Shown: one piece after another, positions 2,557 through 58,266 of the stretch
Numbering within the stretch: position 1 is the stretch's first letter
Layout of the letters: each line of letters starts with the position of its first letter
Assembly: GCA_030280995.1 (NCBI GenBank)
Contig: JASXTE010000011.1
Coordinates: 372,001 to 436,000, forward strand
Source: Hemileia vastatrix
Taxonomy: Eukaryota; Basidiomycota; Pucciniomycetes; Pucciniales; Zaghouaniaceae
Length of the DNA stretch: 64,000 bases
Reading direction: 5' to 3'
Notes under the pieces: generated by a model
What the model saw: only the letters and a program-made list of their open reading frames with translations
What the model was told of the DNA's origin: nothing
Databases searched by the model: none
Made by a program: the position numbers and the translations under genes

Positions 2557-2566
2557 CTCCCTTACT
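2557..2566 (-). promoter_or_regulatory. A1 polypurine tract
   Basis: In the element sense AGTAAGGGAG lies directly before the 3' LTR, where plus-strand DNA synthesis is primed in LTR retrotransposons. A T-rich stretch precedes it. The same AGGGAG-LTR junction is kept in A2 at 10518-10523. Confidence 0.7.
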
Positions 2567-2597
2567 CTAAAAAAAAATAATAAAAAAAAAAAAAATG

Positions 2598-3536
2598 CTA
2601 TGATTTTTTCTTCTTATACTTTTTTAGTAGAGTAGGAAGATTAGATATCTCCTTCCCAGGTATCCAAGAATCATATTCAGATGATTTATTCTTGAATCTC
2701 AATAAGTATTCTGTACCTTTCTCAGCAGTGACTATTCTGTCATTTAATATTTTTTCAATTTCTGCTGTCTCAGTGATTTCATTTGGGGTTTTCTTTGGTC
2801 TACCCCTCCTTCTTGGAAATAAATCACTATTGGATGTGTAAGGTTTCAAAAGAGATATTGGAAAAACAGGATGTTTTCTGTCATATGGGGAATACAGAAT
2901 AACTTCAACTGCATTATCTCCAATCATTCTTCTGACAACAAAAGGACCAACAAATGGATCTTTTAATTTGTTATTACCTTGTAAGTTGAAGTGGACTGTA
3001 GAAATCAACAATTCATCACCCTTTTTAAAAGTGTATTCTTTATGGGATTTGTCCCATCTTTTCTTCTCATATTCAAATGATTTTTCAATACATTTTTGAG
3101 CATGATTTCTGCATAGTTGTTGCATTTGAAGAAAAGATTTTACACCAGGATGTATATCCAATTTAGGTATTTTGTTATTGAGAATTTGGGCAGGAGTATT
3201 AGGAACATATCCAAGCCAGAGCTCAAAAGGCTTTCTTTGAGTAACAGAATGAACAGTGCTATTATAAGCAAATTCTAACCCAGGAAGTAAGGTAACCCAA
3301 TCATGAGTGAATCTTTCATTATCTTTATACTCAAGGCCAAAGGCACAATATCTTCTTATCATGTCTTCTAAAGTCTGAATCATTCTTTCAGCTAAACCAT
3401 CAGTCTGAGGGTGATGGGCAGTAGAAAGTTTCAGATCACAACCACAAACATCCATCAGAGACATCCAGAATTCAGAAGTAAATTTAGGGTCTCTGTCAGA
3501 GATTATGGCTTTAGGAAAACCAGCAGTATTAAACAT
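2598..3536 (-). CDS. A1 integrase, C-terminal part (after nonsense codon)
   Basis: This continues the long frame in phase after the TAG at 3543-3545, so with that one codon restored the element would have a single frame of about 2007 residues. It holds the second and third catalytic residues of the DDE core (SDRDP and LAERM), then a GPF-type domain (DPFVGPFVVRRM). The tail (YLLRFKNKSSEYDSWIPGKEISN) resembles a chromodomain-like fold but is short of clear cage residues. It cannot be made as a free protein in any obvious way and is best seen as the downstream half of a broken gene. Confidence 0.88.
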   Translation of the reverse strand: MFNTAGFPKAIISDRDPKFTSEFWMSLMDVCGCDLKLSTAHHPQTDGLAERMIQTLEDMIRRYCAFGLEYKDNERFTHDWVTLLPGLEFAYNSTVHSVTQRKPFELWLGYVPNTPAQILNNKIPKLDIHPGVKSFLQMQQLCRNHAQKCIEKSFEYEKKRWDKSHKEYTFKKGDELLISTVHFNLQGNNKLKDPFVGPFVVRRMIGDNAVEVILYSPYDRKHPVFPISLLKPYTSNSDLFPRRRGRPKKTPNEITETAEIEKILNDRIVTAEKGTEYLLRFKNKSSEYDSWIPGKEISNLPTLLKKYKKKKS

Positions 3537-3542
3537 ATGAGA

Positions 3543-6500
3543 CTACCATAAGAAAGCTAATTCTTTAGTGGAAACATCCTTGTGGGTAGCGATAAATTTA
3601 CACATTTTTGTGAATCTGTCCACAATAACCCAACAAGAGTTATAACTGTCTTTACCAGCAATAGGTAATCCTGTTACAAAATCCATGTTTATTATTTGCC
3701 ATGGGGCATCAGGAGGTTCAATATGTTGCATTAATCCTGCTCTTTTACCAGTTAATCTTTTTGATTTTTGGCATGAATCACCGGATTCAACATATAATTT
3801 TGTGTCTTCAGACATATTAGCCCACCAAGCAGTGTTCTTAATTCTGATCATTGTTTTGTCAAGATCAAAATGTCCAGCTAATATGTCATCATGACAAATT
3901 TTCAAGATGATTTCTTTCATAGAAGGAGGAATAACAATAACATTACTCAAGTTTCTTCTATAATATAGATATCCTTCATCAATTGAAAATTTTCCTTTTT
4001 CCAAACCTTTTTGGTACTTTGGTGGAAGGGTTTTAAGTAATGCTTGTATTGAAGCATTCTTTGGATCATTTAATATGGTGCATAACTTTTTCAAGTCAGT
4101 GTCCTTATCATATGATTCCAGAATAAGCTGTAATAGCTCTTCCTCCATATCAACCACATATATCCCATGGATATGGATAATTTCATCCTCAGGATCATAT
4201 GCAGGATTTGAGTCATCATTTGGTAAGGGTAACCTTGATAACATATCCACATTTGAGTGACAAATACCAGCTTTGTGAATAATTGTCATTCTCCCTCTGT
4301 ACTCTTGAACAGCCAGCTGCCATCTAAACATATGTCTATTAGGTGTTTTCAAGTTTAAAAGGGATTTAACTGCACTGCAGTCAGTGACAAGTTCAAATTT
4401 CTGGTCATCTAGGTAGTAATGAAGCTTTTCTAGAGCCCATACTACAGCTAAACACTCTAATTGAGTAGCAACATATTTCAATTCACTATTTCTCAAGGTT
4501 CTTGAAATATAACAAATTACTACTTCTGAAACTTTATCATTTATCACTTGTTTTTGATGGAGGGCAGCACCAAGACCAATGAAACTGGCATCAGTGTACA
4601 AAACAAATGGTTGATCAAAGTCAGGTAAAGCAAGAATTGGTGCTGACATCAAACAGTGTTTCATAGTGTCAAAGGCTCTTTGTCTTTCACTATTCCAGAC
4701 AAAAGCAACATCCTTTCTAGTTAATTGGGTAAGGGGTAAAGCTATGACTTGGTAATTTTTAATATACTGTCTATAGTATCCACACATTCCCAAAAAACTT
4801 TGGAGCTCTCTTACTGTTGTAGGAGCTTTCACCTGTTGTATGGCTGCCACTTTGTTCTGGTCAACACATATCTGTAAGCCTGAAACAACATGACCAAGAA
4901 CTTTTAAAGAATGGAAACCAAATTTACATTTCTTCAAAGCAAGTGTCATATTTATTTTGTCCATTTTCTGGAATACTTTACACAGGTGTTTAAGATGGTC
5001 CTCAAATGTTTTTGAGAATATAATGATATCATCAATATAAACCATCATCCAACCTTCAATTATCTCTTGATGGAATGTGTTATCCATTACTTTTTGGAAA
5101 ACTGAAGGGGCATTTTTAGGGCCAAAAGGCATCCTAATATACTTATAAATACCCATATGAGTGGCAATCATCAGAAAGTTCTGAGAATTTTTCTCAACAG
5201 GTACCTGGTGATATCCCTTATTACCATCCAAACAGCTGATATATTTAGCACCCTGTAAAGTAGCATGTATAGAGCTGATTCTAGGTAAAGGATAGATATC
5301 ATTAACAGTATAAGTATTTAGTGCTCTATAATCACCACATAACCTGGCTTTATCTTTCTCATAAGAAATTAGGACAGGTGAGATAACACAATATTTAGGT
5401 GTTTCAACTACCTTTTCAATAATATTCATTTTTAAAAGGGTAGAGATATTATCTTCAATATCTTTTCTCTTTGTGGGAGAAGCAGGATAAGGCTTCTTCT
5501 TTAAACTAGGTGGTATATCAGTTAATGTGCAAGACAATAAAAGTTTCATTTCCTCTTTAACTAATCCCAGTTCATGTGACCCATGAGCAAAGGCCATAGG
5601 AAAAGATTTTAGCAAGTTAATGATGGAATCTTTATCCTCACCAGAAAGTTGTTCTCCAAAAGAGGCATTGTCAATTTCAGACATAAGGGCATGCATTTCC
5701 TTTGTAGATCTTCCTTTATATTGAACCACAGAATTACATGTGTTCAATTCTGGTTTTAATAATTTTTTAGGGGAGGAAATTTTAAATTTTCTCTTCCCAT
5801 TCAACCCCATTGTGAAACATTGGTTTGAAGGATCCAATTTTATGCCATACTTGGTTAAAATATCATTCCCTACAATAAACCAATTGCTCAAGTTATCATT
5901 TTTCATGACAACAAAATCACAAATAGCTCTTACAAATCCATGGTTATATTTAAAAAACACTGTGGCTTTGTATTTACCAATGGGGGACAAAACAGAGCCA
6001 TACCCTCTCCAATTTTCAGAAATGATAGGCAACAGTTTAGATTTATAGTCTTGATCTACTGAGGCAAGTGCTCTTTCAGATACTACACTTCCTCCAACTC
6101 CAGAATCCAGAACAACTTCAATGCTGGTTCCATTAATCAAGACTGGTGCCTTAAGAGGGGCAATAACAATTGAGTTATCCTCAATGTTCTTTATGATCTC
6201 AGCATCCTCAACTGCAGATAAATCATTATTATCAACGTCAATAGTATTCAAATAATGAATATCTTCTTCCAGGATCAAGATTTCTTGTTGAGATTCATAT
6301 GAAATATTGCTGGCCCAATCACTTGATGTATCATCCAGTGCCACTGTGTCATCAGCATGCTCCTCTGTTTGTTCCACAAGATTTATCTTCTTGTCACAAA
6401 CATGGCCTTTCTGCCAAGGCTTGTTGCACTTGAAGCAAGTGTTTGTTGCATACTTCTTTGGTGCAACAGGGGCAGAAGGTTTACCAACCTTTTCCAGAGG

Positions 6501-35292: not shown

Positions 35293-36404
35293 TGTGGTAG
35301 CCTAAAGTTTAGTACGGCACCTAAATATGTAAATGGAGTTATTACGGCGTGCAAGATTGGCATTATCATTTTTTTATATAAAAGGGTTTTATTTAATTTA
35401 TTGGAGTTTAAAATATGAAGAAATTGGTCACGAGCGAATGCCTACACAAATACAATTTATTTTGCGGAGAAAACTTATTTTTATGGTCTAAAAAATTTAT
35501 AAGTATCAAGTCAAGTCACTCAAGAACCTTGGGAAATTTTCCCAGAACTTTTACTATTTTTCTTATATTTTTAAATGAATTTTAAAGTTTTATAGAAATA
35601 TTTACGTTTTCAAAAATTACTTAACTTTGATGAATTTTCACAGGGTAATTAGAGCTGCGCAGACTACGAAAATTAGTTTGGTATGTAAAGAGGAAGTAGC
35701 CTTATTATGTGTAATTTTTCTAGATTTTTTATTATGGTTTTAAGGTTCTAAATTGAGTCCGGAAGTCCGGAGTGACTCCGTACGGACTCCGTACGGACTC
35801 CGTACGGGCTCCGGATTGACTCTGGAAGAGCTCTGGAGGGGAAAACTTAGGCACGTGACTAGGAATACTTAAGCGCTTCTCAAACTCGAAATTGAGAGGG
35901 GGGACACATCATACAGCTTAATCTTTAACCACCACAGTCTCATTTTTTATTACTCAACAAATTAAAATAACTTGTAATACCCTTATAACATTATTATTTT
36001 TTTACATAACATTTTAGAAATACAATTCAACAGTTTAAATAACACTTCATACAGGGTATCTTTAGAAAGGTCTTCATCACTGGGACTTGATTATTGCTGT
36101 CTCATAAAAATTTAAATTATTATAAAAACATAAAAGTCAATCTTTTCAGATCTTTCACTGGTACACCTTAATTGTTGTTATCAGTATTTCTTTCTCAACA
36201 GCCACTTTCTTTTAATCTCAATAAGCGTTAAATATTTTAGAGTTTCTTTATTTTCATCAATCAGATCCAAGTAGATTGGTTAGCTTAGTGATTTAGAATA
36301 CCCATTTTGTTATTTATTGGAAGGACGGGGTTTTCAGCTAAATCCACATATCTCCTCCGGATTCTGCTTACAGCAAGGCGACTGTAAGAGTTTACCTTAC
36401 CATA
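35293..36404 (+). repeat. B1 5' LTR with TATA box and CCGTACGG minisatellite
   Basis: 1112 bp. A TATATAAAAG promoter-like box lies at 35375-35384. A GC-rich block at 35757-35815 holds three perfect CCGTACGG palindromes spaced by ACT, in otherwise AT-rich sequence. Near its end a strong hairpin (CTTACAG/CTGTAAG, 36367-36388) precedes AGTTTACC. Confidence 0.92.
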
Positions 36405-36406
36405 GT

Positions 36407-36428
36407 TGGCGCCCAACGTGGGGTTCGA
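36407..36428 (+). promoter_or_regulatory. B1 primer-binding site for tRNA-Lys(CUU)
   Basis: TGGCGCCCAACGTGGGG and the next five bases begin two bases after the LTR. From what is known of eukaryotic tRNA-Lys(CUU), whose 3' end is ...CCCCACGTTGGGCGCCA, this is a near-perfect complement over about 22 bases, reaching into the T-loop. It is an unusually long match. Confidence 0.85.
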
Positions 36429-36475
36429 TTTCTCTAGCTTTCTTTAAAAGACTTACTTGGATCAAGAATGTTATT

Positions 36476-36538
36476 AGCCTGCAAGAGGCTTATTTTCTGG
36501 AACTCTGATTGGATTTTTGTTATTGGCCTGCAAGAGGC
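36476..36538 (+). repeat. Two GCAAG-loop hairpins in B1 leader
   Basis: AGCCT-GCAAG-AGGCT at 36476-36490 and GCCT-GCAAG-AGGC at 36526-36538, 48 bases apart, just before the gag start. B2 keeps both (51696-51710 and 51746-51758). They share GCAAGAGG with the coding-region hairpins of the same element. Confidence 0.7.
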
Positions 36539-36581
36539 TTGTTATTTTATCGATTGTTAACGCTTTTCATTACTTATTGGG

Positions 36582-39194
36582 ATGTCTTCTTCTGCTGTTG
36601 CTTCTGGATCTTCTAACCCTCTTACTCCCTTAGTTAGAATTGTTTCTTGGGATGGCCCAAAGTTTGATGGGGAGGAGGTTAAATGGTTCATTAGCAGGTA
36701 TGAAGCTGCTGCTGCTGTTGATGGTGCTTCCCATGTGGATATGGTGAAGCAAGTTAGATTTTTTATTGCCAATAGGGAGGTGGAAAAAGAGGTTATTGCT
36801 ATGCAGGCATTTAAGGACAAGGATTGGGTTAAGCTTTCTAAAGCTATGGTTGATAGATGGGGTGTTAGGTTTACTATGATGGACCTCAATAAAATTGTTG
36901 GAGACTGGCAAGCAAAAGGTGGAGTTTCTTCTATGGCTGACTTCAAAAAGCTCTGTGTTCAGTTTGATGAAGTGGTGGAATATCTCATACTGGTGGACGA
37001 GTTAGTGCATGAGAACCAAGCAAAAGATTTGTTTTGGTCGGCATGCAGCAGGGATATTTGTATGGACGTCTTGAAGGATCTTTCAAGAAAAGATTTGATG
37101 AAGGAACTGCCTAATGGTGAGCAGAAACTCACGGCTCTGGAGGTTATCAAAGAGAACATTCAGGCCCATCTCAAGTTATTGGCGTTGGACAAATATCAAG
37201 AGTCATGCACTCAATATGTTAGAAAGGTTAGCGAAGTTTTGGCGGAAAATAACGATATTATGGTCAAAGCCCAGGAGGCCAAGAAGGCTCAAATGGGATT
37301 ACCTGCTGCTAAAGTTGAGGGTAATGTAGATAATAAGATGGTCAATCACTTGGCCGATTTAACGAAACAATTAAAAATATTTGTTCAAGAAACCCAGAAG
37401 GCTAACAAGGCCCCAATTGCTTCTTTGTCGACGTCAACTTCTTATCAGTCTAGAGGGTATGAACGTCGAAATTATAATGGCAATAATAATGGTAACCGCT
37501 TCCCAGGCAATTGGAGAAATGGTGGGAATGGTGGTAGTAATGGATATAGAGGTGGCTATGATGAGCCAAAGGTGTGCTCCTATTGTAATAGGAGGGGTCA
37601 CAGAGCAACAGTTTGTTTTGCTCTTGATAAGGATATGGATTCTGGGCGAGTTTTATTTGATGGTAAAGTTTATAAATTTCCTGATGGTTCGTTCATCAAG
37701 CCCAGTGATGGACAGTCTCCTTCTGATTTGGTCAGAAGAAGTTTAACGGCTGAAAGGAGAGCCAGATTTGAAGAGGTGACGGATGAAGATGTTAATGCCA
37801 AGAGTGGCAAAAATGGTAATGGTAATGGTGGTAAAGCTGACAAGGGCAAGGAGAAAGAGGTCAGTAAAGCCACATTTTCTACTTCTTTTGGTGGTTTAGA
37901 GCTGACGACGGTTGCCCAGGTGGAGGGCAGCTGTATGGCTGGCGAATACGATGTTAATGCTGCTAGAAGAGCAGCTGCTACTAAGGCAAAAAGTAGAATT
38001 CAGAGCCAATTGAGGGCTAATCTTGGCAAGGCCAATAACAAAGTGAACCCTTACTATAAGGACAAGAATTCTAGTGCTCAAACTGCCGCCAACAAATTGA
38101 ACCCTTACTCTAAGGACGAATTATATAAAATGCAGAAGGGGATTGCTGATATGGGGCCCCCTAGTTATGGCAAGTTTGATTTAAATGGTGAGCCTATGCC
38201 AGAGGATGATTCGGATTCTGAGGAGGACGTAACGTTGGCGTCTCTACCCAGACCAAGTTTTAGCGGTCCCATCCCAATGGAGGGAGTAAGAAGGACTAGC
38301 GATGGATCAGGATTAGTGCAAGAAGCTTGTGACGGAGTTAGGGTTATAGAAAGTGAAGATGTTATAATGGGGGGTGAAGATGGCTCGGTTGGACCTCAAG
38401 AGGTACCCAGGGCCAAGGTTGTTAAATCAAAGGTCCAGTATGAGCGGCCAGTAGTTTCTGGTCAAGCTAATGCGATGGACGCAGTTTTGAATAGGGTGAA
38501 TCAACTTCAGATTCCCTTATCTTTGGGGGAGTTATTTACGATTAGTCCGGCGCTTGCTGAAAAGGAAAAGAAGCATTTGACGAGGTGTCGGGTTTCCACT
38601 GGAGAGTTGGAATATATTTGTGAAAATGCTGAAAAGTTTGGGGAAGATGTAGATACACATTTTTCCGCTCCCCTGGGTTACCTGGTGGTAACTCTTAACG
38701 GTAAAGAAGTAAAGGCCTTGGTTGATTCAGGGTCTCAAATTAATTTAATTTCATTGGAGCAAGCGACGAGTATAGGCTTGCCAATTAAAAGTGGAACTGG
38801 GGGAAACCTCAGAGGCATTGGAGGGCATGCAACCGAGCTGATGGGTACTGCTGAGCATGTCAGGTTAGGCATTGGTGGATCTGTTGGTAAGGTTCACTTT
38901 TATGTGGCCAGAGGAGCAGTCAAAACTGTTCTTGGTGGTCCTTTTTTGATGGATTTTGAGGCCAGGATAGGGTATCAAGCTGGCATGGGGATTAGTTTGG
39001 AGATCACTGGTGAAGATATGCGGAGGTTACATATGCGGTTAGCACCTCCTGGAGATGAAGGTTGGGAAACACGGCCAGGGATTACTACTCTGTGCCAGTG
39101 TTGTGTTTGCACCAAGAAGCGGCATATAAAACGGACGGCTTCTGGTGAATTATGTTTGTTGGAAAGGGATGAATGCCCTCATTTTTTGGGGTAG
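36582..39194 (+). CDS. B1 Gag-protease
   Basis: 870 residues. The first 250 or so form an alpha-helical capsid-like region (VRIVSWDGPKFDGEEV, VRFFIANREVEKEVIAM). A glycine- and asparagine-rich stretch (about 290-330) precedes the canonical zinc knuckle CSYCNRRGHRATVC (about 332-345), which binds RNA. A charged middle leads to a retropepsin-like domain with ALVDSGSQINLIS near 714 and a VLGGPFLMDF segment; the protease would cut the polyprotein. The C-terminus is cysteine-rich (CQCCVCTKK). The stop TAG (39192-39194) directly follows the slippery run before pol. The ATG is preceded by the leader hairpins. B2 uses the matching ATG. Confidence 0.88.
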   Translation: MSSSAVASGSSNPLTPLVRIVSWDGPKFDGEEVKWFISRYEAAAAVDGASHVDMVKQVRFFIANREVEKEVIAMQAFKDKDWVKLSKAMVDRWGVRFTMMDLNKIVGDWQAKGGVSSMADFKKLCVQFDEVVEYLILVDELVHENQAKDLFWSACSRDICMDVLKDLSRKDLMKELPNGEQKLTALEVIKENIQAHLKLLALDKYQESCTQYVRKVSEVLAENNDIMVKAQEAKKAQMGLPAAKVEGNVDNKMVNHLADLTKQLKIFVQETQKANKAPIASLSTSTSYQSRGYERRNYNGNNNGNRFPGNWRNGGNGGSNGYRGGYDEPKVCSYCNRRGHRATVCFALDKDMDSGRVLFDGKVYKFPDGSFIKPSDGQSPSDLVRRSLTAERRARFEEVTDEDVNAKSGKNGNGNGGKADKGKEKEVSKATFSTSFGGLELTTVAQVEGSCMAGEYDVNAARRAAATKAKSRIQSQLRANLGKANNKVNPYYKDKNSSAQTAANKLNPYSKDELYKMQKGIADMGPPSYGKFDLNGEPMPEDDSDSEEDVTLASLPRPSFSGPIPMEGVRRTSDGSGLVQEACDGVRVIESEDVIMGGEDGSVGPQEVPRAKVVKSKVQYERPVVSGQANAMDAVLNRVNQLQIPLSLGELFTISPALAEKEKKHLTRCRVSTGELEYICENAEKFGEDVDTHFSAPLGYLVVTLNGKEVKALVDSGSQINLISLEQATSIGLPIKSGTGGNLRGIGGHATELMGTAEHVRLGIGGSVGKVHFYVARGAVKTVLGGPFLMDFEARIGYQAGMGISLEITGEDMRRLHMRLAPPGDEGWETRPGITTLCQCCVCTKKRHIKRTASGELCLLERDECPHFLG

Positions 39195-39844
39195 CAGGGG
39201 CTGATCGCTCTAATGTTGTAATCTCTCCTCAGGATGAGATCCCGGATTGCAATAGGTCAGCTCACTTAGAGATAATTCAAGTGGATTCTCAATTATTTTC
39301 TGTTAATATTACTTTGGAGTGCAAATACGTTTTGGACTTTTCTATATGTTTATTGGATTTACCCTGTTTTTCTATTAAATTTAAAAACGGTGAAAAAGGC
39401 AAAATGGGCCAAATTAGGTTGGATAAAAATTGGAAGGGTATGCATATGGGCCTCCAGCAAGAGGTTAAACTGCAATTGTCTCCTTCTATTTTGGACCTCC
39501 AGCAAGAGGGTAAACTGCAAAAATTACATCAAAACTCGATTAAAAATCTCAGTATAAGTAAAACACAAAAAAATAATTTTTGTGAAAATTCAATTCCGGA
39601 CCTCCAGCAAGAGGTTAAACTGCAATTATCTCCTTCTATCACGGACCTCCAGCAAGAGGGTAAACTGCAAATATCACATCAAAATCCGATAAAAAATCTC
39701 AGTATAATTAAAACCCAAAAAAATAATTTTTGTGAAAATTCAATTCCGGTCCTCCAGCAAGAGGGTAAACTGCCAACTTTCTTTACGGTTGATTTACTGT
39801 TGGATAGGGAAGCAAAGGTGTTGGAAAATCTGTTTATAAATTAG
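39173..39844 (+). CDS. B1 Pol N-terminal linker with repeated L-x-x-E-x-K-L peptides
   Basis: Start of the pol frame, entered from gag by -1 frameshift; the ATG at its start is probably not needed. The first 90 residues are unknown. Five copies of LQQEVKL or LQQEGKL follow, each encoded by one hairpin motif. A 150-bp unit with two hairpins is duplicated in tandem (39451-39600 and 39601-39750) and is present once in B2, so B1 gained 50 residues in frame. The frame is lost by a one-base deletion near 39806 (GATAGGG where B2 has GATAAGGG). Confidence 0.75.
   Translation: MPSFFGVAGADRSNVVISPQDEIPDCNRSAHLEIIQVDSQLFSVNITLECKYVLDFSICLLDLPCFSIKFKNGEKGKMGQIRLDKNWKGMHMGLQQEVKLQLSPSILDLQQEGKLQKLHQNSIKNLSISKTQKNNFCENSIPDLQQEVKLQLSPSITDLQQEGKLQISHQNPIKNLSIIKTQKNNFCENSIPVLQQEGKLPTFFTVDLLLDREAKVLENLFIN
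39181..39194 (+). promoter_or_regulatory. Programmed -1 frameshift site between B1 Gag and Pol
   Basis: TTTTTTGGGG directly precedes the gag TAG. In the gag frame it reads CAT TTT TTG GGG TAG, giving a T TTT TTG slippery heptamer. Pol is open in the -1 frame across this point. The same sequence is kept in B2 (53109-53123). The position right before the stop is typical of such signals. Inference; no pseudoknot was worked out, but hairpins lie about 260 bases downstream. Confidence 0.65.
39451..39773 (+). repeat. Coding hairpin motifs in B1 Gag-Pol linker (5 copies)
   Basis: Copies start at 39451, 39496, 39601, 39646 and 39751. Each has stem CCTC/GAGG, loop CAGCAA and tail TTAAACTGC or GTAAACTGC. 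They are part of the larger 23-nt hairpin family of this element. Confidence 0.85.
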
Positions 39845-39984
39845 ACGAGGGAAAGGAGAAAAGGGTAAAATTTAAAAATGAAATAAAATATTTTTCTAAT
39901 TTTTCTTATTCTGATTCTGGCGATGAAGAAGATTCATTTGATGAGAGTTTTAATGGCGATGTTTTACCTCAAGTTAATTTAGAT

Positions 39985-42519
39985 GTGGACGCAGCCAAAT
40001 ATAAGAAAGTAGCAAATAAAGTTCGACCTATTAATGAACCGCTACCTGCCAAGTTAAATCCACCTTTGAGAAGACCAAGGTTATCAAGAGATCCTTATGA
40101 AAGTCCCTTGGTAAAGAATCCGCCTGAATTTTCTGAGACGTCAAGAATCACTTTTGAGAGACTGGGTGTTGTTAATTTTGGACCTGATGGTTGGTTGTCT
40201 GGAGAAGAGAAGAAGTTGTTGTTGGATGTGATGGTCAAGCGAGAGAAGGCCATTGCTTTTGTAGAAGAGGAGAGGGGTGTGTTGAAGCATTCCTATGGGG
40301 AGCCTTACAAGATTCCTGTGGTATGTCATCAACCGTGGCAGCAGAAACCGATTCCTATTCCGGCTGCATTGAAAGAAGCCTATATTGAAGTTGTCAGAGA
40401 ACCGATACGCACTGGACTGTATGAGCAATCAACATCAAGTTATTCTAGTCCGGTATTTTGTATCAAGAAACCAAATGGCAAGCTTAGAGTTGTTCATGAT
40501 CTTAGGGAATTAAATAGGGTTACAATAAAGGATGCTGGGATACCACCTAGTGCTGAGGAGTTTGTTGAAGCGTTTGCAGGGAGAGTGTGCTATGGTTTGG
40601 GAGATATTATGGGTGGATATGATGAGAGAGAGTTACATCCGGACTCAAGGCCTCTCACTACATTCGATACGCCACTTGGACGTTTACAGTTAACAAGATT
40701 ACCTCAACGAGCAAAAAATTCGGTTGCAGTTTATCAAGCTCAGATGGCTTGGATCCTTCAAGATGAAATTCCACAATATGCTGGAATCTTTATAGATGAT
40801 GGAGGAATTAAGGGACCAACAACCGACTATGATAACCAGGTGTTGGAAGAGAATCCCGGGATACGCAAATTCATTTGGGAGTTTGCAATTACTTTAGAAA
40901 GAATCTTGTTTCAAATTGAAGAGGCTGGTTTAACTATTTCAGGTTCAAAATTTTCCTGTTGTGTGACAGCCTTAGAAATATTAGGCCATGTGGTATGTAG
41001 AGAGGGTAGGATTATGTCCAAGAAGAAAGTTAACAAAATTCAGTCCTGGCCAAGACCCAAGAATACGACCGAAGTTAGAGGGTTTTTAGGCGTTTGTGTA
41101 TATGTTAGAATGTTTATCAAGGACTTTTCTTCATTGGCAGCTCCATTGAGACGGTTAACGAGAAAGGATGCAGACTGGGAGTGGGATGAAGAGTGTGAGA
41201 AGGCGTTTGTGAAGTTGAAGGAGGTTGTGGGGAAGGATTTAGTCCTGCACAAGTTGGATTATGGAAAAGATGCTGGCAGAATTTATTTAGCAGTTGATTC
41301 AAGTCAGATTGCAGCTGGGGCGGTTTTGTCTCAGATGGATAAAGCTGGTTACATCAGGCCAGTTAGGTATGAATCTGTAGTATTTACTGAGGTCGAATCA
41401 AGATATTCTCAACCAAAATTGGAATTATGTGGTGTGGCTAAAATACTGAAGAAACTTCAGCATATTTTGTGGGGGCAACATTTTGAGTTGCAAGTGGATG
41501 CAAAATCGTTAATCCAGATGATTAATTCCCCAAGTTTACCGAACGCACCCATGACGAGATGGGTAGCTTTTATTCAACATTTTTCATTTGATTTAGTTCA
41601 TAAGCCTGGCAAGACTTTTACTATGCCAGATGGTTTATCAAGGAGACCACCCACTGAAGAAGATTCAGACTCAGAAGAGTTCAATGAAGATATACCTATT
41701 ATCAAAGCCAGCACTAAAGGAGCTGAAGACTTTCCATACCTCCCCCATGAGGTTAAACTGGCAGGACTATTGTGTTTAGATTATGATGATGATGATGACC
41801 TCCACCAAGAGGATAAACTGGAAAATAGTTTTTATGTTAATAAAGGTGTTGGAAAAGGTGTAGATAAATTCGGCAGAGAGGAGGTAGAAGAAGATGTGGT
41901 GTATGTAGAGGAAAATGGATTGGTAGTATGGGATAGTAGTAAATTAAGGAATGGTGTATATGTTGGAGAATTAGAGAACTTAAATAAAAAGGTGGATAAA
42001 GAGAAAGAGGTATTTTCAAATACGGTTTTCGAAGGATCCAAAGGTTCAGAAGAAAAACGTCGACATAGCTCGATTAAAGATTTATTTAGGGGTCAACGAT
42101 TATTGGCTCCTTCATGTGCAGGTGATATTGGTGATAGAGAAGTCCCTATTGAGGTTATATTAATCGATTTTCAAGATGAAGTCTGGGGTCAGACTGGTTT
42201 TTATTTTTTGTTAGTCAAATATTTGTTGACTTTAGAAAGGCCAGAAGATTGTGAAGACGATGAATGGGTGGCTATCAAGAGGAAGTCATCTACGTTTTAC
42301 CTATCTGGTCGACGTTTAATGAGGAGGAGGTATCAAAATTCTCAAGTAGTTATAACTCAACAGAAGGGGCAAGATTTAGTTTTGAAATCACTTCATGAAG
42401 ATCTCGGGCAAAGAGGCGTTGGAGAAACGTTTAGAAGAATTTCTGATCGATTTTGGTGGCCTGGCATGAAGATGGCTGTTAAAAAGTGGGTTCAGTCATG
42501 CGAAGAATGTCAAAGATGA
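39985..42519 (+). CDS. B1 Pol: RT, RNase H and integrase zinc domain
   Basis: 844 residues in the frame after the deletion. RT: LRVVHDLRELNRVTIKDAG, DIMGGYDERELHP and catalytic GIFIDDGG; the LPQGATN box of the sister elements is changed to LPQRAKN. RNase H: IYLAVDSSQIAAGAVL, QPKLELCGVAKIL and LQVDAKSLIQMI. A linker of about 150 acidic residues carries two more hairpin-encoded peptides (41739-41761 and 41799-41821). The integrase zinc domain follows, with one histidine replaced (GQRG for GHRG) and the CEEC pair kept. The TGA at 42517-42519 replaces CGA of B3. Confidence 0.87.
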   Translation: MDAAKYKKVANKVRPINEPLPAKLNPPLRRPRLSRDPYESPLVKNPPEFSETSRITFERLGVVNFGPDGWLSGEEKKLLLDVMVKREKAIAFVEEERGVLKHSYGEPYKIPVVCHQPWQQKPIPIPAALKEAYIEVVREPIRTGLYEQSTSSYSSPVFCIKKPNGKLRVVHDLRELNRVTIKDAGIPPSAEEFVEAFAGRVCYGLGDIMGGYDERELHPDSRPLTTFDTPLGRLQLTRLPQRAKNSVAVYQAQMAWILQDEIPQYAGIFIDDGGIKGPTTDYDNQVLEENPGIRKFIWEFAITLERILFQIEEAGLTISGSKFSCCVTALEILGHVVCREGRIMSKKKVNKIQSWPRPKNTTEVRGFLGVCVYVRMFIKDFSSLAAPLRRLTRKDADWEWDEECEKAFVKLKEVVGKDLVLHKLDYGKDAGRIYLAVDSSQIAAGAVLSQMDKAGYIRPVRYESVVFTEVESRYSQPKLELCGVAKILKKLQHILWGQHFELQVDAKSLIQMINSPSLPNAPMTRWVAFIQHFSFDLVHKPGKTFTMPDGLSRRPPTEEDSDSEEFNEDIPIIKASTKGAEDFPYLPHEVKLAGLLCLDYDDDDDLHQEDKLENSFYVNKGVGKGVDKFGREEVEEDVVYVEENGLVVWDSSKLRNGVYVGELENLNKKVDKEKEVFSNTVFEGSKGSEEKRRHSSIKDLFRGQRLLAPSCAGDIGDREVPIEVILIDFQDEVWGQTGFYFLLVKYLLTLERPEDCEDDEWVAIKRKSSTFYLSGRRLMRRRYQNSQVVITQQKGQDLVLKSLHEDLGQRGVGETFRRISDRFWWPGMKMAVKKWVQSCEECQR

Positions 42520-42630
42520 AGTTATTTAAGGCCAAAAGAACCTGGGCGCGCGACCGGTGAATATACACTCTTTGGAAGAGTTAGTTTAGATGCCTTTCAT
42601 ATAAAAGAGGGACAGTATAAATATTTAATT

Positions 42631-43479
42631 GTGGCCAGAGATGATTTATCTGGTTGGGTAGAGGCAGCGCCTCTTATTAATTTAACTGCCAAAAATGTGG
42701 CAGAATTTTTTTTGAATAATTGGGTATATAGGTATGGGGTGATGAAGTTGGTAACGGTAGATGGAGGTCCTGAATTTGGGACAGAGTTTAAAGAGGCCGT
42801 ATTGAAAGTTGGATCAAAGGTTAGGGTAGCAACCCCATATTATCCTGAAGCTGAAGGCATGGTTGAAAGAGGGCATCAAGTTATTAAGGATGCTTTAGTT
42901 AAAATGTGTGGGACAAGTGCTGAAAAGTGGAGGCACTATTTACCTTTAGTTTTATTTGCTGATCGAATCACTGCCAAAAGGACGACCGGATTTTCACCTT
43001 ATGAACTTGTTTTTGGACAGAAAGCAGTTTTACCGGTTGATTTAGAAGCTGAATCATATCTTGGAGTTGACTGGGACACGGTCAAAACTACTGAAGAATT
43101 ATTGTGTGCAAGAATGATGCAGCTAGAAAAGAAAGAAGAATATTTAGAAAAGGCATATTGGCGGATGATGAAGATCCGAAATCAATCAGTTAGATATTGG
43201 GATGAGCGGATGGCACATCGATTAAGGAAACCTTTGAATCCAGGAGATATGGTCCTGGTGTATAATAGGAGTTTGGAAAGTCAGTGGGGAAAAATGTTTG
43301 CAGATAGGTGGAATGGACCGTATAAAATCAAGGAGCAAGTTTCCGGCGGTTCATATGTGCTAGAAGAGTTGGATGGAGTAGTATTGAAGAAGAGGGTAGC
43401 GGCCGATCAAGTGAAACAGTTCTATCCTAGAGGCACCAGGAGTGCCGAAGTCTTCCTCCGCAATGAGGATAAACTATGA
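42631..43479 (+). CDS. B1 integrase core and C-terminal domain
   Basis: Continues pol in the same frame after the TGA at 42517. The ATG at 42631 is internal; the frame is open from 42520. The DDE residues are VSLDAFH (just upstream), VDGGPEFG and MVERGHQ. A GPY-type region follows (FADRWNGPYKIKEQV). The last residues, LRNEDKL, and the stop TGA are encoded by a hairpin motif. It would insert element DNA into the genome. No chromodomain is present. Confidence 0.87.
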   Translation: MARDDLSGWVEAAPLINLTAKNVAEFFLNNWVYRYGVMKLVTVDGGPEFGTEFKEAVLKVGSKVRVATPYYPEAEGMVERGHQVIKDALVKMCGTSAEKWRHYLPLVLFADRITAKRTTGFSPYELVFGQKAVLPVDLEAESYLGVDWDTVKTTEELLCARMMQLEKKEEYLEKAYWRMMKIRNQSVRYWDERMAHRLRKPLNPGDMVLVYNRSLESQWGKMFADRWNGPYKIKEQVSGGSYVLEELDGVVLKKRVAADQVKQFYPRGTRSAEVFLRNEDKL

Positions 43480-43619
43480 TATCAATGAAACTTTATGGAT
43501 TCCTCCGCAATGAGGATAAACTATGATATCTACGAAATTTTATGGATTCCTCCGCAATGAGGATAAACTATGATGTTTATAAAAATCTTATGACGACCTC
43601 CGCAATGAGGATAAACTAT
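43455..43619 (+). repeat. Hairpin motifs over the B1 pol stop codon and just after (4 copies)
   Basis: Copies at 43455, 43502, 43549 and 43597: stem CCTC/GAGG, loop CGCAAT, tail ATAAACTAT. The first overlaps the end of pol, with the stop directly after. Spacing is 47-48 bases, suggesting local duplication. A further copy (AGTC/GACT, loop CACTAA) lies at 43945-43967. Confidence 0.85.
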
Positions 43620-44714
43620 CTTCTCTTCTTTTTTATCAAATAATTTACTATCGTTACACTGCATATGGGCAACGAAACTGTGATGAAACATAACGAAATA
43701 CGAGAAAACCTTCATTGAAAATTTTCAAAATTTAAAATTCTTAAAATATGGGTGAAGATAGTGTTGGAAAAATTTTAAAATTTATTGGAAGAAGTGTTCA
43801 CAGGGGAACCTTCTTAATTTAATATTGGCAAGTGTGGGGGTAATTGATGGGCTGGCTGCTCTATACACAATTACCCCATAATGTTCGTTTCCAAAATTTT
43901 CCCTGTTTCTAGTTGAATCCTGGCTTTGTCTTTTAATTTTAGGAAGTCCACTAAGACTATAAACTGGAACGAATCAAGAGACACCGCTCTCAACTCCGGA
44001 TTCAAGATTTTTTTTATTATTTTATTTTGTTTTTGATTTTTTATGTTAGATTGTGATTTCTTTTCTTTAATATATATATTATGAATTATTGTAAAGGTGA
44101 TGCTCACTGGTGGTCTCTAATCATTTTTATAAATTGGAGGGAGCCCACCCAGTGATCATCATTATAAAAATTTTCTTCTAAAAACTTTCATTTATTTTCT
44201 TTTCTTTTCAATTTCTCAAAATTGTGTAACCACATCAAGTTGCACTTGGATGTGGGTATGATGTCGAGGGTACGGCTCATCAAATGGCCGGGGGGCATCT
44301 TTTAAAATTTTACTTTTAAAATTTTTTTTTTATTATTATTACTTTTTTTCTTTTCACATTCGTTTATCTTTCTTTAAAAATTAAATTTTAACTTTTATTT
44401 CAAAATATCATTTCTAAAATCTTTTATTTTAAATTAAAAACAAAATTAAAAATAAAAATAAAAATAAAATAAAAATAAAAATAAAAATAAATAAATAAAA
44501 AATAAAATAAAAATAAAATAAAAATAAATAAATAAAAATAAAATAATAAATAAATAAATAAATAAAAAAATTAATTAATTAAATCAAATTATTATTATAT
44601 TTCTTAGTTTTATTTTTCAGTCACTATTCTTTTTAGTTTATTCATATAGTTTAGACAGGAAACAGGGTCTAGGGGAACTCAATACCTATGGGATTTTACT
44701 TCAAGACAGCTGTT
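43620..44714 (+). other. B1 3' region: low-complexity part
   Basis: Non-coding sequence between the two hairpin blocks. It contains one isolated hairpin (43945) and a long A/T simple repeat (AAATAAAA units, about 44430-44580). B3 carries the same region in mirror image (about 59900-61050), with a T/A run of different length. I find no ORF worth calling. Confidence 0.6.
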
Positions 44715-45689
44715 AGTCCTCCAAGACTTTAAACTGGCTACTGTTCAAAACTTTCCTTAAGGTTTTATACAAATTTTTGGAGCTGTTAGTCCTCCAAGAC
44801 TTTAAACTGGCTACTGTTCAAAACGTTCTTTAAGGTTTTTTTTTATACGTATTTTGGATCTGTTAGTCCTCCAAGACTTTAAACTGGCTATTGTTCAAGA
44901 CGTTCTTTAAGGTTTTTTTTTATACGTATTTTGGATCTGTTAGTCCTCCAAGACTTTAAACTGGCTACTGTTCAAGACATTCTTTAAGGTTTTTTATTAT
45001 ACGAATTTTGGAGCTGTTAGTCCTCCAAGACTTTAAACTGGCTAATTTTCAAGACTTTCATTAAAGATTTTATATTGGAGCTGTTAGTCCTTCAAGACTT
45101 TAAACTGAATTTCAAGGATGATTAAGATTTTATGGATATTTTTGGAGACGGATTTTTTTTTATATATAAATCAAATGTTAGGTCCACCAAGACCTTAAAC
45201 TGGAGTGTTATGAAATGTTAGGTCCACCAAGACCTTAAACTGGACTGTTATCAAGCTGTTGGGTCCACCATGACCTTAAACTGGATTTTTTATCGATTAA
45301 ATGTTTGGTCCACCATGACTTTAAACTGGTAGTTCATTCATTGTTTAGTCCACTATGACTTTAAACTGGAAAATTAATATCTGCAGGATAATTCAACATT
45401 CATTGGACCACTATGGCCTTATACTGGATTACTTGTCGATCAAATGTTTGGTCCACTATGACATTAAACTGGATTATCAAATTTATTCAATCTTTGGTCA
45501 AGCCTAGGCCTTACTTAGGAATATATCAAGATATTTATGCACTTAAACGATCTTTGGTCCACCAAGACCATAAACTGGCAATCGATTATATGTTTGGTCC
45601 ACCAAGACTTTAAATTGGAATGTCAATCTTGTTTGGATAACTCAATTCAATCTTTTAATTTATCACTGTCCCCTAAGACTTTAAACTGG
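44715..45689 (+). repeat. B1 3' hairpin array, about 15 clear and 2 degenerate copies
   Basis: Copies begin at 44715, 44788, 44865, 44942, 45019, 45086 (stem AGTC/GACT, loop mostly CTCCAA), then 45181, 45221, 45262, 45307, 45347, 45450, 45556, 45596, 45667 (stems GGTC/GACC, G-U variants or AGTC/GACT; loops CACCAA, CACCAT, CACTAT). All carry the tail TTAAACTGG or close to it. Degenerate copies lie near 45405 and 45495. The stem changes on both sides while loop and tail stay similar, as expected for a selected structure. The short ORFs here (45413-45746) only reflect the repeats. Confidence 0.88.
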
Positions 45690-46279
45690 TTATTCAATTA
45701 TTTCTGGAATTGGGTGTTGATAAGCTTTAGGAGGCTAAAATTTTAGGTGGTGATGATTCTAAGGAAAGCATAATGGTTAATTAGGTAAAATTTGTGGCGC
45801 TTTAACATGGTCTAAAGTTAATATTATTATTGGAAGCCTGGCAAAAGTATTTTATGGGTTTGCTGTAAAGCAAAGTTTGAAAATTGTGATGAAGGAATCA
45901 GAAGTTAGGATGGTAGTTGGATTTTAGGGAATGATTTTTTTTAGTGCCTCATAGTTAGGCCATTTTTTTTTGGTGTGAAGCTTGGAGGACCTTATGGCGA
46001 GATTGGAATCATAGAATTCGGCTCAGTGGGGGGCCCTATGAGGTTGGAATCAGGAGTATTCGGCTCATAGGAAGATCCACTCTCTCAATGCTGTGACAAG
46101 AAGGAGCACTGGTATATGGGAGTCTTAAGGGATTCAAACCTTGCTCTCAGCAGTGGAATCATCAGAAGATTTATTTTATTTTATTTTATGTTATATCAAG
46201 CCAGAGAAGAAAGAAAACATCATTTATGTTGAAAGTTTAAGAAGACCAAGCAAAAACAAAATTTTATCAAGTTATACTG
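45690..46279 (+). other. B1 3' region between hairpin array and zinc-cluster gene
   Basis: Non-coding. B3 has a close mirror copy (about 58440-58930), including the run GCTCAGTGGGGGGCCC. I recognise no motif. The sequence near 46160 is an ATTTT repeat. Confidence 0.5.
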
Positions 46280-46972
46280 TTAGAAAAGATAATTTCTTTG
46301 AAATTGTTCAACATCATTATCAAAGCTTTGCATTAAAATTCTTCTTTTAATGAGGTCTTCATGGTTATTAGCTGGAGTTTCTTGAAAATAGGCCAGCATT
46401 TTTAGTTTCAACTCATTAGTAAAGTCAAGAAAAAGATAGCGATGAAAATTTGGGTAATGATTGATATAGTCCGTCTTCACTCTACCAACATCATCAGTGT
46501 TGGTTATTTCGACAGCTAGAAGTTCAAATATGTTATTAAGTCATAGGTTTAGTCAATTTTGATTAAAAGTTTTTTTTAGTAAGATAAATAGGGTCTTACA
46601 TTTAGGGCCAGGAAACATAGTCTCAGCAAAGTTAGTTGGGGGTACTGGCGTTATAGGATTAGGATCTTGTGAAGGCAAAATTAGGCCGGGATCCGTTGAT
46701 GAAGATTGAACTTTTGAAGCTGTTTTTGATCTTATTCGTTTTAAGAAGACAGGAATTTTGGATCGCTTTTTAGAAGTTGAGGGATCAGGGAGAGCTGCTG
46801 GTCCTAAATATACGTTTGTTTTAGAAGGAACTATTGGCCGGTTGCATTTGACTTTTTTCACACGGCATAAGTCGCAAGCTGTTCTGCCAGGAAGATTAGG
46901 GTTGGACATTAAACAAGGTACCTGGTATCGAGCGCAGAGTTCACATGGAGCGACAAGTTCTTTGGAAGACAT
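46280..46972 (-). CDS. Opposite-strand zinc-cluster protein gene in B1, two exons
   Basis: Exon 1 is 46972-46600, exon 2 is 46515-46280; the 84-bp intron (46516-46599) has GTAAGA and TTCTAG ends and a TGACTAAAC-like branch site, and splicing keeps the frame, giving 202 residues. Residues 10-45 hold C-x2-C-x6-C-x12-C-x2-C-x6-C (CELC, then CDLCRVKKVKC). The spacing fits the Zn2Cys6 binuclear cluster of fungal DNA-binding regulators, but the basic half comes second. A KKRSK and RIRSK stretch follows. Most of it lies within a 734-bp segment missing from B3; the last nine or so codons are element sequence. Role unknown; a regulator of the element is one idea. Confidence 0.72.
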
Positions 46973-47046
46973 ATTGATGAAGATGAATTTTATAGTTGAT
47001 TAAAGAAGATGGTGGTTGAAGGTTAAAGATGAATATTGTGTTCAAC
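46307..47046. other. 734-bp cassette present in B1, absent in B3
   Basis: Aligning B1 with the reverse complement of B3, the sequences agree up to TTCAAC at 46307-46312 and resume at TTCAAC at 47041-47046. B3 has a single TTCAACC-like junction (RC of about 58315-58325). The cassette carries nearly all of the zinc-cluster gene. Either B1 gained it or B3 lost it by recombination between the TTCAAC repeats. Confidence 0.7.
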
Positions 47047-47085
47047 CACTTATGCAAAGTTTTAAGAATGGGGACATTCTCGATT

Positions 47086-47095
47086 GGAGGGAGGA
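47086..47095 (+). promoter_or_regulatory. B1 polypurine tract
   Basis: GGAGGGAGGA directly precedes the TGTGGTAG start of the 3' LTR. B3 has the same tract at 58267-58276 on the minus strand. Confidence 0.85.
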
Positions 47096-48218
47096 TGTGG
47101 TAGCCTAATGTTTAGTACGGAACCTAAATATGTAAATGGAGTTATTACGGCGTGCAAGATTGGCATTATTATTTTTTTATATAAAAGGGTTTTATTTAAT
47201 TTATTGGAGTTTAAAATATGAAGAAATTGGTCACGAGCGAATGCCTACACAAATACAATTTATTTTGCGGAGAAAACTTATTTTTATGGTCTAAAAAATT
47301 TATAAGTATCAAGTCAAGTCACTCAAGAACCTTGGGAAATTTTCCCAGAATTTTTACTATTTTTCTTATATTTTTAAATGAATTTTAAAGTTTTATAGAA
47401 ATATTTACGTTTTCAAAAATTACTTAACTTTGATGAATTTTCACATGGTAATTAGAGCTGCGCAGACCACGAAAATTAGTTTGGTATGTAAAGGGGAAGT
47501 AGCCCTATTATGTGTAGTTTTTCTAGATTTTTTATTATGGTTTTAAGGTTCTAAATTGAGTCCGGAAGTCCGGAGGGACTCCGTACGGACTCCGTTCCGG
47601 CTCCGTACGGACTCCGTACGGGCTCCGGATTGACTCTGGAAGAGCTCTGGAGGGGAAAACTTAGGCACGTGACTAGGAATACTTAAGCGCTTCTCAAACT
47701 CGAAATTGAGAGGGTGGACACATCATACAGCTTAATCTTTAACCACCACAGTCTCATTTTTTATTACTCAACAAATTAAAATAACTTGTAATACCCTTAT
47801 AACATTATTATTTTTTTACATAACATTTTAGAAATACAATTCAACAGTTTAAATAACACTTCATACAGGGTATCTTTAGAAAGGTCTTCATCACTGGGAC
47901 TTGATTATTGCTGTCTCATAAAAATTTAAATTATTATAAAAACATAAAAGTCAATCTTTTCAGATCTTTCACTGGTACACCTTAATTGTTGTTATCAGTA
48001 TTTCTTTCTCAACAGCCACTTTCTTTTAATCTCAATAAGCGTTAAATATTTTAGAGTTTCATTATTTTCATCAATCAGATCCAAGTAGATTGGTTAGCTT
48101 AGTGATTTAGAATACCCATTTTGTTATTTATTGGAAGGAAGGGGTTTTCAGCTAAATCCACATATCTCCTCCGGATTCTGCTTACAGCAAGGCGACTGTA
48201 AGAGTTTACCTTACCATA
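47096..48218 (+). repeat. B1 3' LTR
   Basis: 1123 bp, TGTGGTA to TACCATA. It matches the 5' LTR except for about a dozen substitutions and an extra, degenerate unit (CCGTTCCGG) in the CCGTACGG block at 47561-47629. Confidence 0.92.
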
Positions 48219-50483: not shown

Positions 50484-51625
50484 TGTGGTAGCCTAAAGTT
50501 TAGTATGGCACCTATGTACGTAAATGGAGTTATTACGGCATGCAAGATTGGCGTTATCATTTTTTATAAAAGAGTTTTATTTAATTTATTTGAGTTTTAA
50601 ATATGAGGAAATTAGTCAAGATCGAATGCCTACACGAAATTAATTTATTTTACGGAGAAAACTTATTTTTACTGTCTGAAAAGTTTATAAGTATCAAGTC
50701 AAGTCACTCAAGAACCTTGGGAAATTTTCCCAGAAGTTTTACTATTTTTCTTATATTTTTAAATGAATTTTAAAGTTTTATAGAAATATTTACGTTTTTA
50801 GAAATTACTTAACTTTGATGAATTTTCACGGGGTGATTTGATGTGCACAGACTACGAAAATTAGTTTGGAATGTAAAGGAGAAGTGGTTCTATCATGTGT
50901 AAAGTTTCTAGATTTTTCATTATAGTTTTAAAGGTTCTAATTGAGTCCGGACGGACTCCATTTGGACTCCGCTTTGACTCCGTACGGACTCTGTTCGGAC
51001 TCCGCTTTGACTCCGTACGGACTCCGTACGGGCTCCGGATTGACTCTGGGAGAGCTCTGGAGGGGAAAACATAGGCACATGACTAGGAATACTTAAGCGC
51101 CTCTCAAACTCGAAATTGAGGGGGGGATACATCATACAGCTTAATCTTTAACCACCACAGTCTCATTTTTTATTACTCAACAAATTAAATAAATTTTAAT
51201 ACCCTTATAACTTTAAATTTTATATATAACATTTTGGAAATACTACTCAACAATTTAAATCACACATCATACAGGGTATCTTTAGAAAGGTCTTCATCAC
51301 TGGGACTTGATTATTGCTGTCTCATAAAAATTTAAATTATTATAAAAACATAAAAGTCAATCTTTTCAGATCTTTCACTGGTACACCTTAATTGTTGTTA
51401 TCAGTATTTCTTTCTCAACAGCCACTTTCATTAAATCTCAATAAGCGTTAATTATTTTATAGTTTCATTATTTTTATCAATCAGATCCAAGTAGACTGGT
51501 TAGCTTAGTGATTTAGAATTCCCATTTTGTTATTTTATTGGAAGGACAGGGTTTTCAGCTAAATTCACATATCTCCTCCGGATTCTGCTTACAGCAAGGC
51601 GACTGTAAGAGTTTACCTTACCATA
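50484..51625 (+). repeat. B2 5' LTR
   Basis: 1142 bp, TGTGGTA to TACCATA. The GC-rich block (50946-51039) is longer than in B1, with three perfect CCGTACGG sites mixed with GACTCCGCTTT units. More diverged from B1 than the two B1 LTRs are from each other. Confidence 0.9.
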
Positions 51626-57107: not shown

Positions 57108-58266
57108 TATGGTAAGGTAAACTCTTACAGTCGCCTTGCTGTAAGCAGAATCCAGAGGAGATATGTGGATTCAGCTGAAAACCCCGTCCTTCCAATAAAA
57201 AATAACAAAATGGGAATTCTAAATCACTAAGCTAACCAATCTACTTAGATCTGATTGATAAAATAATGAAACTCTAAAATAATTAACGCTTATGAGATTT
57301 AAAGAAAGTGGCTGTTGATAAATAAAATACTGATAACAACAATTAAGGTGTACCAGTGAAAGATCTGAAAAGATTGACTTTTATGTTTTTATAATAATTT
57401 AAATTTATATGAGACAGCAATAATCAAGTCCCAGCGATGAAGACCTTTCTAAAGATACCCTGTATGAAGTGTTATTTAAACTGTTGAATTGTATTTCTAA
57501 AATGTTATGTAAAAAAATAATAATGTTATAAGGGTATTACAAGTTATTTTAATTTGTTGAGTAATAAAAAATGAGACTGTGGTGGTTAATGATTAAGCTG
57601 TATGACGTGTCCCCCCTCTCAATTTCGAGTTTGAGAGTCGCTTAAGTATTCCTAGTCACGTGCCTAATTTTTCCCCTCCAGAGCTCTTCCAGAGTCAATC
57701 CGGAGCCCGTACGGAGTCCGTACGGAGCCGGAACGGAGTCCGTACGGAGTCTGTACGGAGTCAAAGCGGAGTCCGTACGGAGTCCGTCCGGACTTCCGGA
57801 CTCAATTTAGAACCTAAAAACCATAATAAAAAATCTAGAAAAATTACACATAATAGAGCTACTTCCCCTTTACATACCAAACTAATTTTCGTAGTCTGCG
57901 CAGCTCTAATTACCCCGTGAAAATTCATCAAAGTTAAGTAATTTTTGAAAACGTAAATATTTCTATAAAACTTTAAAATTCATTTAAAAATATAAGAAAA
58001 ATAGTAAAAATTCTGGGAAAATTTCCCAAGGTTCTTGAGTGACTCGACTTAATACTTATAAATTTTTCAGACCTTAAAAATAAGTTTTCTCCGTAAAATA
58101 AATTGTTTTCGTGTAGGCATTCTCTCGTGACCAATTTCTTCATATTTAAAACTCAAATAAATTAAATAAAACCCTTTTTATAAAAAAAAATAATAACGCC
58201 AATCTTGCACGCCGTAATAACTCCATTTACATATTTAGGTGCCGTACTAAACTTTAGGCTACCACA
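57108..58266 (-). repeat. B3 3' LTR
   Basis: 1159 bp in reverse orientation (TATGGTA at the left end, TACCACA at the right). The GC-rich block (57700-57803) has four perfect CCGTACGG palindromes plus several one-base variants, the longest such block in the window. Confidence 0.9.

Follow-up and report, generated by a model that had tools for sequence, protein, structure and literature searches.

The 64,000-nucleotide stretch of Hemileia vastatrix DNA analyzed here (contig JASXTE010000011.1, positions 372,001 to 436,000; hereafter the window) contains a long terminal repeat (LTR) retrotransposon, B1, whose LTRs (35293-36404 and 47096-48218) are 97.9% identical and flank protease, reverse transcriptase (RT), RNase H and integrase in the order of a Ty3/gypsy-type element. 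Two further element copies are present in the window, B2 on the forward and B3 on the reverse strand. The initial annotation of this DNA described a 23-nucleotide (nt) hairpin motif repeated roughly 25-30 times across B1 and carried also by B2 and B3. A tail-anchored scan recovers 28 copies within 39451-45689 of B1, and the motif is present in both B2 and B3. The copies occupy the sites named earlier: five in the linker between gag and pol, two in pol, five over or after the pol stop codon, and 16 (previously about 15) in an array whose copies start between 44715 and 45667; about 3.6 kb separate the pol stop (43479) from the 3' LTR. Copies recur in repeat units of 150, 77, 47 and 40 nt, and the 28 fall into two classes, I and II, of which class II comprises 24 (Table 1).

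Table 1. Features of B1 and inventory of its motif copies (window coordinates).
Feature	Position	Strand	Remarks
B1 LTR retrotransposon, motif carrier	35293..48218	+	LTR pair and Pfam domains
gag-protease frame	36582..39194	+	aspartyl protease near frame end
linker frame	39173..39844	+	five class II copies inside; no Pfam match
five class II copies in linker, 150-nt units	39451..39773	+	loop CAGCAA, tail TAAACTGC; starts 39451, 39496, 39601, 39646, 39751
RT-RNase H frame, reaching integrase zinc-binding domain	39808..42519	+	
two class II copies in pol, RNase H-integrase insert	41739..41821	+	CCCCAT/CTGG and CACCAA/CTGG; starts 41739, 41799
integrase frame	42520..43479	+	core domain 31.9 bits against a Pfam cut-off of 32.6; zinc domain above cut-off
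four class I copies, first over pol stop codon	43455..43619	+	loop CGCAAT, tail TAAACTAT; starts 43455, 43502, 43549, 43597
lone class II copy	43945..43967	+	AGTC-CACTAA-GACT, tail CTGG
77-nt array, six class II copies	44715..45108	+	last copy: loop TCA, tail TGA
40-nt array, ten class II copies	45181..45689	+	stems GGTC or AGTC, one GGAC, last TGTC

Each motif consists of a stem (positions 1-4 with 11-14), a loop (5-10) and an A-rich tail, in which positions 21-23 lie opposite loop positions 7-9. The stems reported earlier, CCTC/GAGG, AGTC/GACT and GGTC/GACC, are all present together with G-U variants such as GGTC/GACT. The hairpin of the initial annotation is real; its description was incomplete in that the tail pairs with the loop in most copies (GCA/TGC, the form of the linker copies, as well as CCA/TGG, TCA/TGA and CTA/TGG) and in that the copies form two classes. 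An alignment of all 21 distinct class II strings from the elements in the window shows 94.0% of stem cells paired, with pair 2-13 occurring as GC 14 times and as CG seven times, and 98.4% of loop-tail cells paired, with pair 7-23 occurring as CG (16), GC (4) and UA (1). Over all seven pairs, 95.9% of cells are paired compared to 79.8% in shuffled alignments, and none of 500 shuffles reaches the observed value; by this measure the outcome that the initial annotation named as refuting, pairing at the level of shuffled repeats, did not occur. Tail columns T16, A17, A19 and T21 are invariant in this alignment and C20 nearly so.

Covariation was also ranked in a larger set of 76 distinct motifs (423 instances; loops ending in C excluded), collected without use of columns 1, 2, 6-8, 13-15, 22 or 23. 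When the 253 column pairs are ordered by corrected mutual information, the stem pair 2-13 and the loop-tail pairs 8-22 and 7-23 take the top three places. Shared descent among the copies is real and is corrected only in part, by taking site families as units; with nine such families, a permutation of loops against tails gives p = 0.014.

The two classes exclude each other. Class I carries the loop YGNNAD followed by the tail N-TAAACTAY, and class II, mostly lacking G at loop position 6, carries N-TAAACTGS or a tail ending in TGA. The class II copies of B1, located in the linker, in pol, at 43945 and in the array, pair loop to tail. Across the 76-motif set, G at column 22 is accompanied by both pairs 7-23 and 8-22 in 290 of 294 instances and by G6 in a single one, whereas A at column 22 is accompanied by G6 in 113 of 125 instances and by both loop-tail pairs in five (p = 3.7e-87, computed over instances that are not independent). 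A further class I form, CGAAAT with TAAACTAC, occurs in B2, in sequence L014 and in 3-kb slices taken from other copies of the element. Across some 80 class I sites aligned from such slices, differences from B1 number none at G6, one at A9, four at Y5, 18 at N7 and 22 at position 10. Class I-type copies that depart from YGNNAD read CGCAAC or CAAAAT.

The initial annotation knew of no described family like this motif, a statement that does not hold for class I, whose copies match the hexaloop consensus of coremin, or xrRNA_C, an RNA of beny-, cucumo-, tombus-, solemo-, hypo- and chrysoviruses that resists the exoribonuclease Xrn1. In the available excerpts of PMC10520033, on which this comparison draws, xrRNA_C comprises a 4-bp hairpin (hp1) with the loop YGAD, a rule credited there to a 2019 coremin paper, or the hexaloop YGNNAD, a conserved spacer of 8-10 nt with an essential C and U, and a second hairpin (hp2). 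The natural hexaloops CGCAAU and CGAAAU resist Xrn1 in assays, sites are listed over stop codons and within coding sequence, and the structure was unsolved as of that account (PMC10520033). Class I shares the 4-bp hairpin (CCTC/GAGG) with inner C-G and U-A pairs, the hexaloop (CGCAAT and CGAAAT, with TGCGAT and CGTAAA in a diverged relative) and a spacer of the form UAAACUAY; class II shares the paired stem and a corresponding spacer. Locations are alike as well, namely over stop codons, in coding sequence, in 3' untranslated regions (UTRs) and in repeats. The B1 motif differs from coremin, as described in those excerpts, in residing in an LTR retrotransposon in 28 copies without hp2, and in that the majority of copies belong to a second class with a loop-tail helix in place of the loop G. 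Class II probably swaps the coremin loop-G contact for a contiguous 3-bp helix between loop and tail.

Motif copies always run in the sense direction. A stricter regular expression finds 27 sense and no antisense copies in B1; window positions 1-35289 yield no match on either strand. Twenty 3-kb slices of other element copies contain 318 sense and 0 antisense motifs. The number of copies varies from 10 to 23 per 3' slice among the twenty and from five to eight per linker among eight loci. A 1550-base B1 query recovers at least 40 near-complete copies of 97-100% identity, B1 included, a lower bound based on the 40 candidates scored among 3641. Exact pattern matches over the whole 747.6-Mb assembly, not split by element type, number 61,422 for class II (reversed-pattern control, 4) and 14,786 for class I (control, 1), or 76,208 together. 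Although the class II pattern left positions 6-8 free, 98 of the first 100 places listed (26 of 28 distinct) have pyrimidines at 7-8, as the GG tail needs; the mispaired combination of loop GCA with tail TGG has 139 matches.

In coding and noncoding parts alike, divergence at motif bases is about 1.7 to 9 times slower than in the flanking sequence. Between B1 and B3, substitutions number 10/460 in motifs and 69/695 in array spacers. In the noncoding arrays, comparing aligned parts of B1 with 20 further copies, the corresponding figures are 87/1839 against 350/1566 (47-nt class I array), 15/1077 against 191/1961 (77-nt) and 73/2843 against 145/3297 (40-nt). In the coding parts, compared with nine other elements or pieces, the linker gives 11/920 in motifs and 114/2044 in the rest (p = 2.3e-9), and the pol copies give 1/414 against 64/3081 in the rest of their insert (p = 0.005) or 400/19114 in the rest of pol (p = 0.004); these significances are overstated because sites and copies are treated as independent. 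Such differences bear on the view that the motif is the conserved-looking core of functionless tandem repeats spread by slippage and recombination. The copies did multiply as units of 150, 77, 47 and 40 nt, and covariation is sensitive to shared descent, with two of five measures failing against shuffles. We nevertheless regard this account as highly improbable, since spacers change about 1.7 to 7 times faster than the motifs with which they share a unit, the B1-B3 comparison shows the same, one structure is kept in four unlike contexts, and the slices hold the motif in the sense orientation only. Selection on an encoded peptide, L-x-x-E-x-K-L, would account for the shared reading frame of the seven linker and pol copies; it is extremely improbable given that most copies are noncoding, that 120 relatives do not show the repeat at the corresponding places (for the first 62, in their last 75 residues) and that the linker frame has no homologue at E up to 10. 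The insert that holds the pol copies is seen in none of 38 aligned relatives, among which at least two proteins (P0048, P0062) end or break off at the insert site. Together, the stem covariation, the G-U pairs, the sense-only orientation and the conservation of motif above spacer support the selection on RNA structure that the initial annotation had proposed.

More distant relatives retain the motif to differing degrees. One of them, 67-72% identical to B1 pol in DNA from a random sample, contains four copies with the loops TGCGAT, CGCAAT, TGCGAT and CGTAAA, all of the YGNNAD type, arranged as 33-nt units in the pol spacer between RNase H and integrase, the location of the B1 pol copies; outer stem pairs are imperfect, and two further diverged copies lie at its pol end. 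In a 76% relative (L058), the linker and pol sites carry decayed copies, and in another (L056) only a decayed trace is seen by eye, over the pol end. In the IMG/VR collection, the class II pattern matches three contigs and the CCTC form seven, about chance level by a rough estimate, and these matches were dropped as evidence; among the three of these ten contigs checked by Pfam, two (L001, L009) carry DNA-phage genes and one (L008) an RNA-phage replicase. The match in the last, at 4011-4031, reads CCTC-CTTTAT-GAGG with tail TAAACTGA directly after the replicase open reading frame (ORF); its loop TTA could pair with the tail TGA, and the match may be due to chance. Coremin-like patterns match 42 IMG/VR contigs as the hexaloop, many of them long, and eight as the tetraloop, which calls for caution in equating the bare string with function; the hexaloop string is GTC-YGNNAD-GAC-NTTAAACTAC (L059-L100), compared to three contigs for the class II string. 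Compared with Rfam at E up to 1, B1 gives four weak matches, all below their gathering scores, one of which (RF00291, 45310-45398, 21.9 bits against a gathering score of 42) overlaps motif copies.

We consider it probable that each motif forms a compact H-type RNA pseudoknot, a fold of the viral coremin kind, and that the B1 motifs serve as roadblocks against the host 5'-3' exoribonuclease Xrn1 on the element's RNA. A fungal nuclease is a plausible target because yeast Xrn1 stalls on coremin, both within yeast cells and in vitro according to the available excerpt of PMC5869530. Decay that enters at a decapped 5' end would proceed as far as the first folded motif. Stalling at linker or pol copies would leave RNA that still includes pol and the 3' end, stalling at the 3' arrays would leave stable 3' fragments, and the many copies would provide redundancy. 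The element might benefit from protected 3' RNA, from a decoy for decay or silencing, or from retention in P-bodies. RNA stability thereby becomes the leading candidate among the roles offered in the initial annotation, whose interpretation as a whole is partly supported. According to the excerpts of PMC10520033, coremin hexaloops also block scanning ribosomes in vitro. This, with the seven copies inside coding frames and the one across the pol stop, would suit motifs that impede ribosomes during scanning or elongation and thereby adjust translation of linker and pol. This function appears quite improbable: 20 of the 28 copies lie past the pol stop, where ribosomes in either phase are not expected, and the closest copy follows the gag stop by 257 nt.

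Several observations weigh against an Xrn1 roadblock or against parts of the evidence for it. With regard to covariation, two of the five measures are no better than in shuffles (double-change pairs, 312/500; further pair types, 460/500), the score of column pair 13-14, not a base pair, comes close to that of 7-23, and the 8-22 signal partly mirrors the class split. A nested energy model in local context gives pairs 2-4 above 0.5 in just ten of 28 stems. A looser filter, allowing one tail mismatch and an imperfect core or stem, finds 22 matches in a random 200 kb against 18 for its reversed control, no separation from chance; for this reason only matches clustered in B1 relatives (L045, L058) were used. 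Within class I, position 8, free in the coremin consensus, varies at none of the 80 or so sites, and 15 copies with an intact stem have the loop CGCAAC, ending in C; CGAAAC fails in the beet necrotic yellow vein virus (BNYVV) context, with natural exceptions noted (PMC10520033, excerpts). Class II, the bulk of the B1 copies, breaks YGNNAD, and the same excerpts report that CAGAAA and CCGAAA fail in the BNYVV context. Class II loops would accordingly be expected to be inactive there, and the change in the tail may compensate.

The remaining point against this function is hp2, termed absolutely required directly downstream in those excerpts. It is missing in B1: 22 of the 28 copies have no hairpin within 0-2 nt downstream, the mean energy at the hp2 position, -0.32 kcal/mol, is less stable than the -0.49 of shuffles, and the downstream 30 and 45 nt fold like shuffles (mean z of -0.08 and -0.03). 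We therefore do not file the motif as coremin/xrRNA_C. The same absence favors the principal alternative, in which the motif offers a multivalent binding site to the Gag zinc knuckle or to a host RNA-binding protein, serving in packaging, assembly or localization, and shares a coremin-like fold whose job is not stalling. Many copies per RNA in varying number would suit multivalency, and a zinc knuckle is discernible in B1 Gag, by eye only. A binding site, however, need not obey the YGNNAD consensus measured for Xrn1-resistant RNA (as given in the PMC10520033 excerpts), and the copies occur in coding and noncoding parts alike; we deem this alternative unlikely.

Pseudoknots of other kinds offer further comparisons. 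Viral exoribonuclease-resistant RNAs often occur in tandem in 3' UTRs. Those of flaviviruses and of tombusviruses and poleroviruses block Xrn1 by a pseudoknot, as proposed here, with folds far larger than the B1 motif; neither family is among the Rfam matches to B1 at E up to 1, no sequence comparison having been made. Frameshift-stimulating H-type pseudoknots have a short stem, a 2-nt first loop, a 3-bp second stem and an A-rich last loop. The B1 motif has the same proportions, but no copy lies just after a frame overlap and most copies are noncoding. We rejected a frameshift stimulator because of these positions: the overlaps fall at 39173-39194 and 39808-39844, whereas the next copies downstream of them begin at 39451 and 41739. 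Ty3 of yeast is likewise an LTR retrotransposon whose RNA depends on P-body proteins, Xrn1 and others associating with the element and being needed for assembly foci; the available excerpt of PMC4589538 describes no comparable RNA motif.

A literature search judged by titles and abstract openings, with few subscription journals covered, found no paper on an Xrn1-resistant RNA in a retrotransposon. On balance we lean toward the broader proposition that this lineage encodes tens of thousands of its own Xrn1 roadblocks, the first outside RNA viruses met in the literature searched, and that the loop-tail covariation of the second class exposes the pseudoknot contact underlying coremin-type resistance. 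If so, a viral means of exonuclease resistance extends to selfish genetic elements, here a chromosomal LTR retrotransposon, and the question arises of what a retrotransposon gains from partial decay of its own RNA. The mutually exclusive classes provide a direct compensatory-mutation test of the loop-spacer interaction, and the exact matches in the assembly a large natural set of variants.

Other features of B1 accompany the motif. Within the array, a diverged copy at 45497-45521 reads GGTC-AAGCCTA-GGCC-TTACT-TAGG; judged by eye, its CCTA loop could base-pair with the TAGG tail. Between the class I copies and the array, 43740-44290 is well conserved and contains hairpins discerned by eye; the mid region as a whole (43626-44290), motif left aside, has 373/12656 differences. 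A 139-residue ORF (46553-46972, reverse strand), which lies past the array and before the 3' LTR and runs antisense to B1, matches the fungal Zn2Cys6 cluster (PF00172, E = 1.3e-5, 25.6 bits against a cut-off of 21), and relative L045 also contains a Cys-rich antisense ORF (2400-2678, forward strand), without a Pfam match. The gag-linker overlap includes TTTTTTG (39182-39188), which could serve as a -1 slippery site. Another -1 step occurs at the linker-pol overlap, in which no such site was seen by eye. Finally, tandem 11-nt units of type CGGACTCCGTA occur in LTRs at 35766-35822, 47576-47636, 50941-51046 and 57701-57792.
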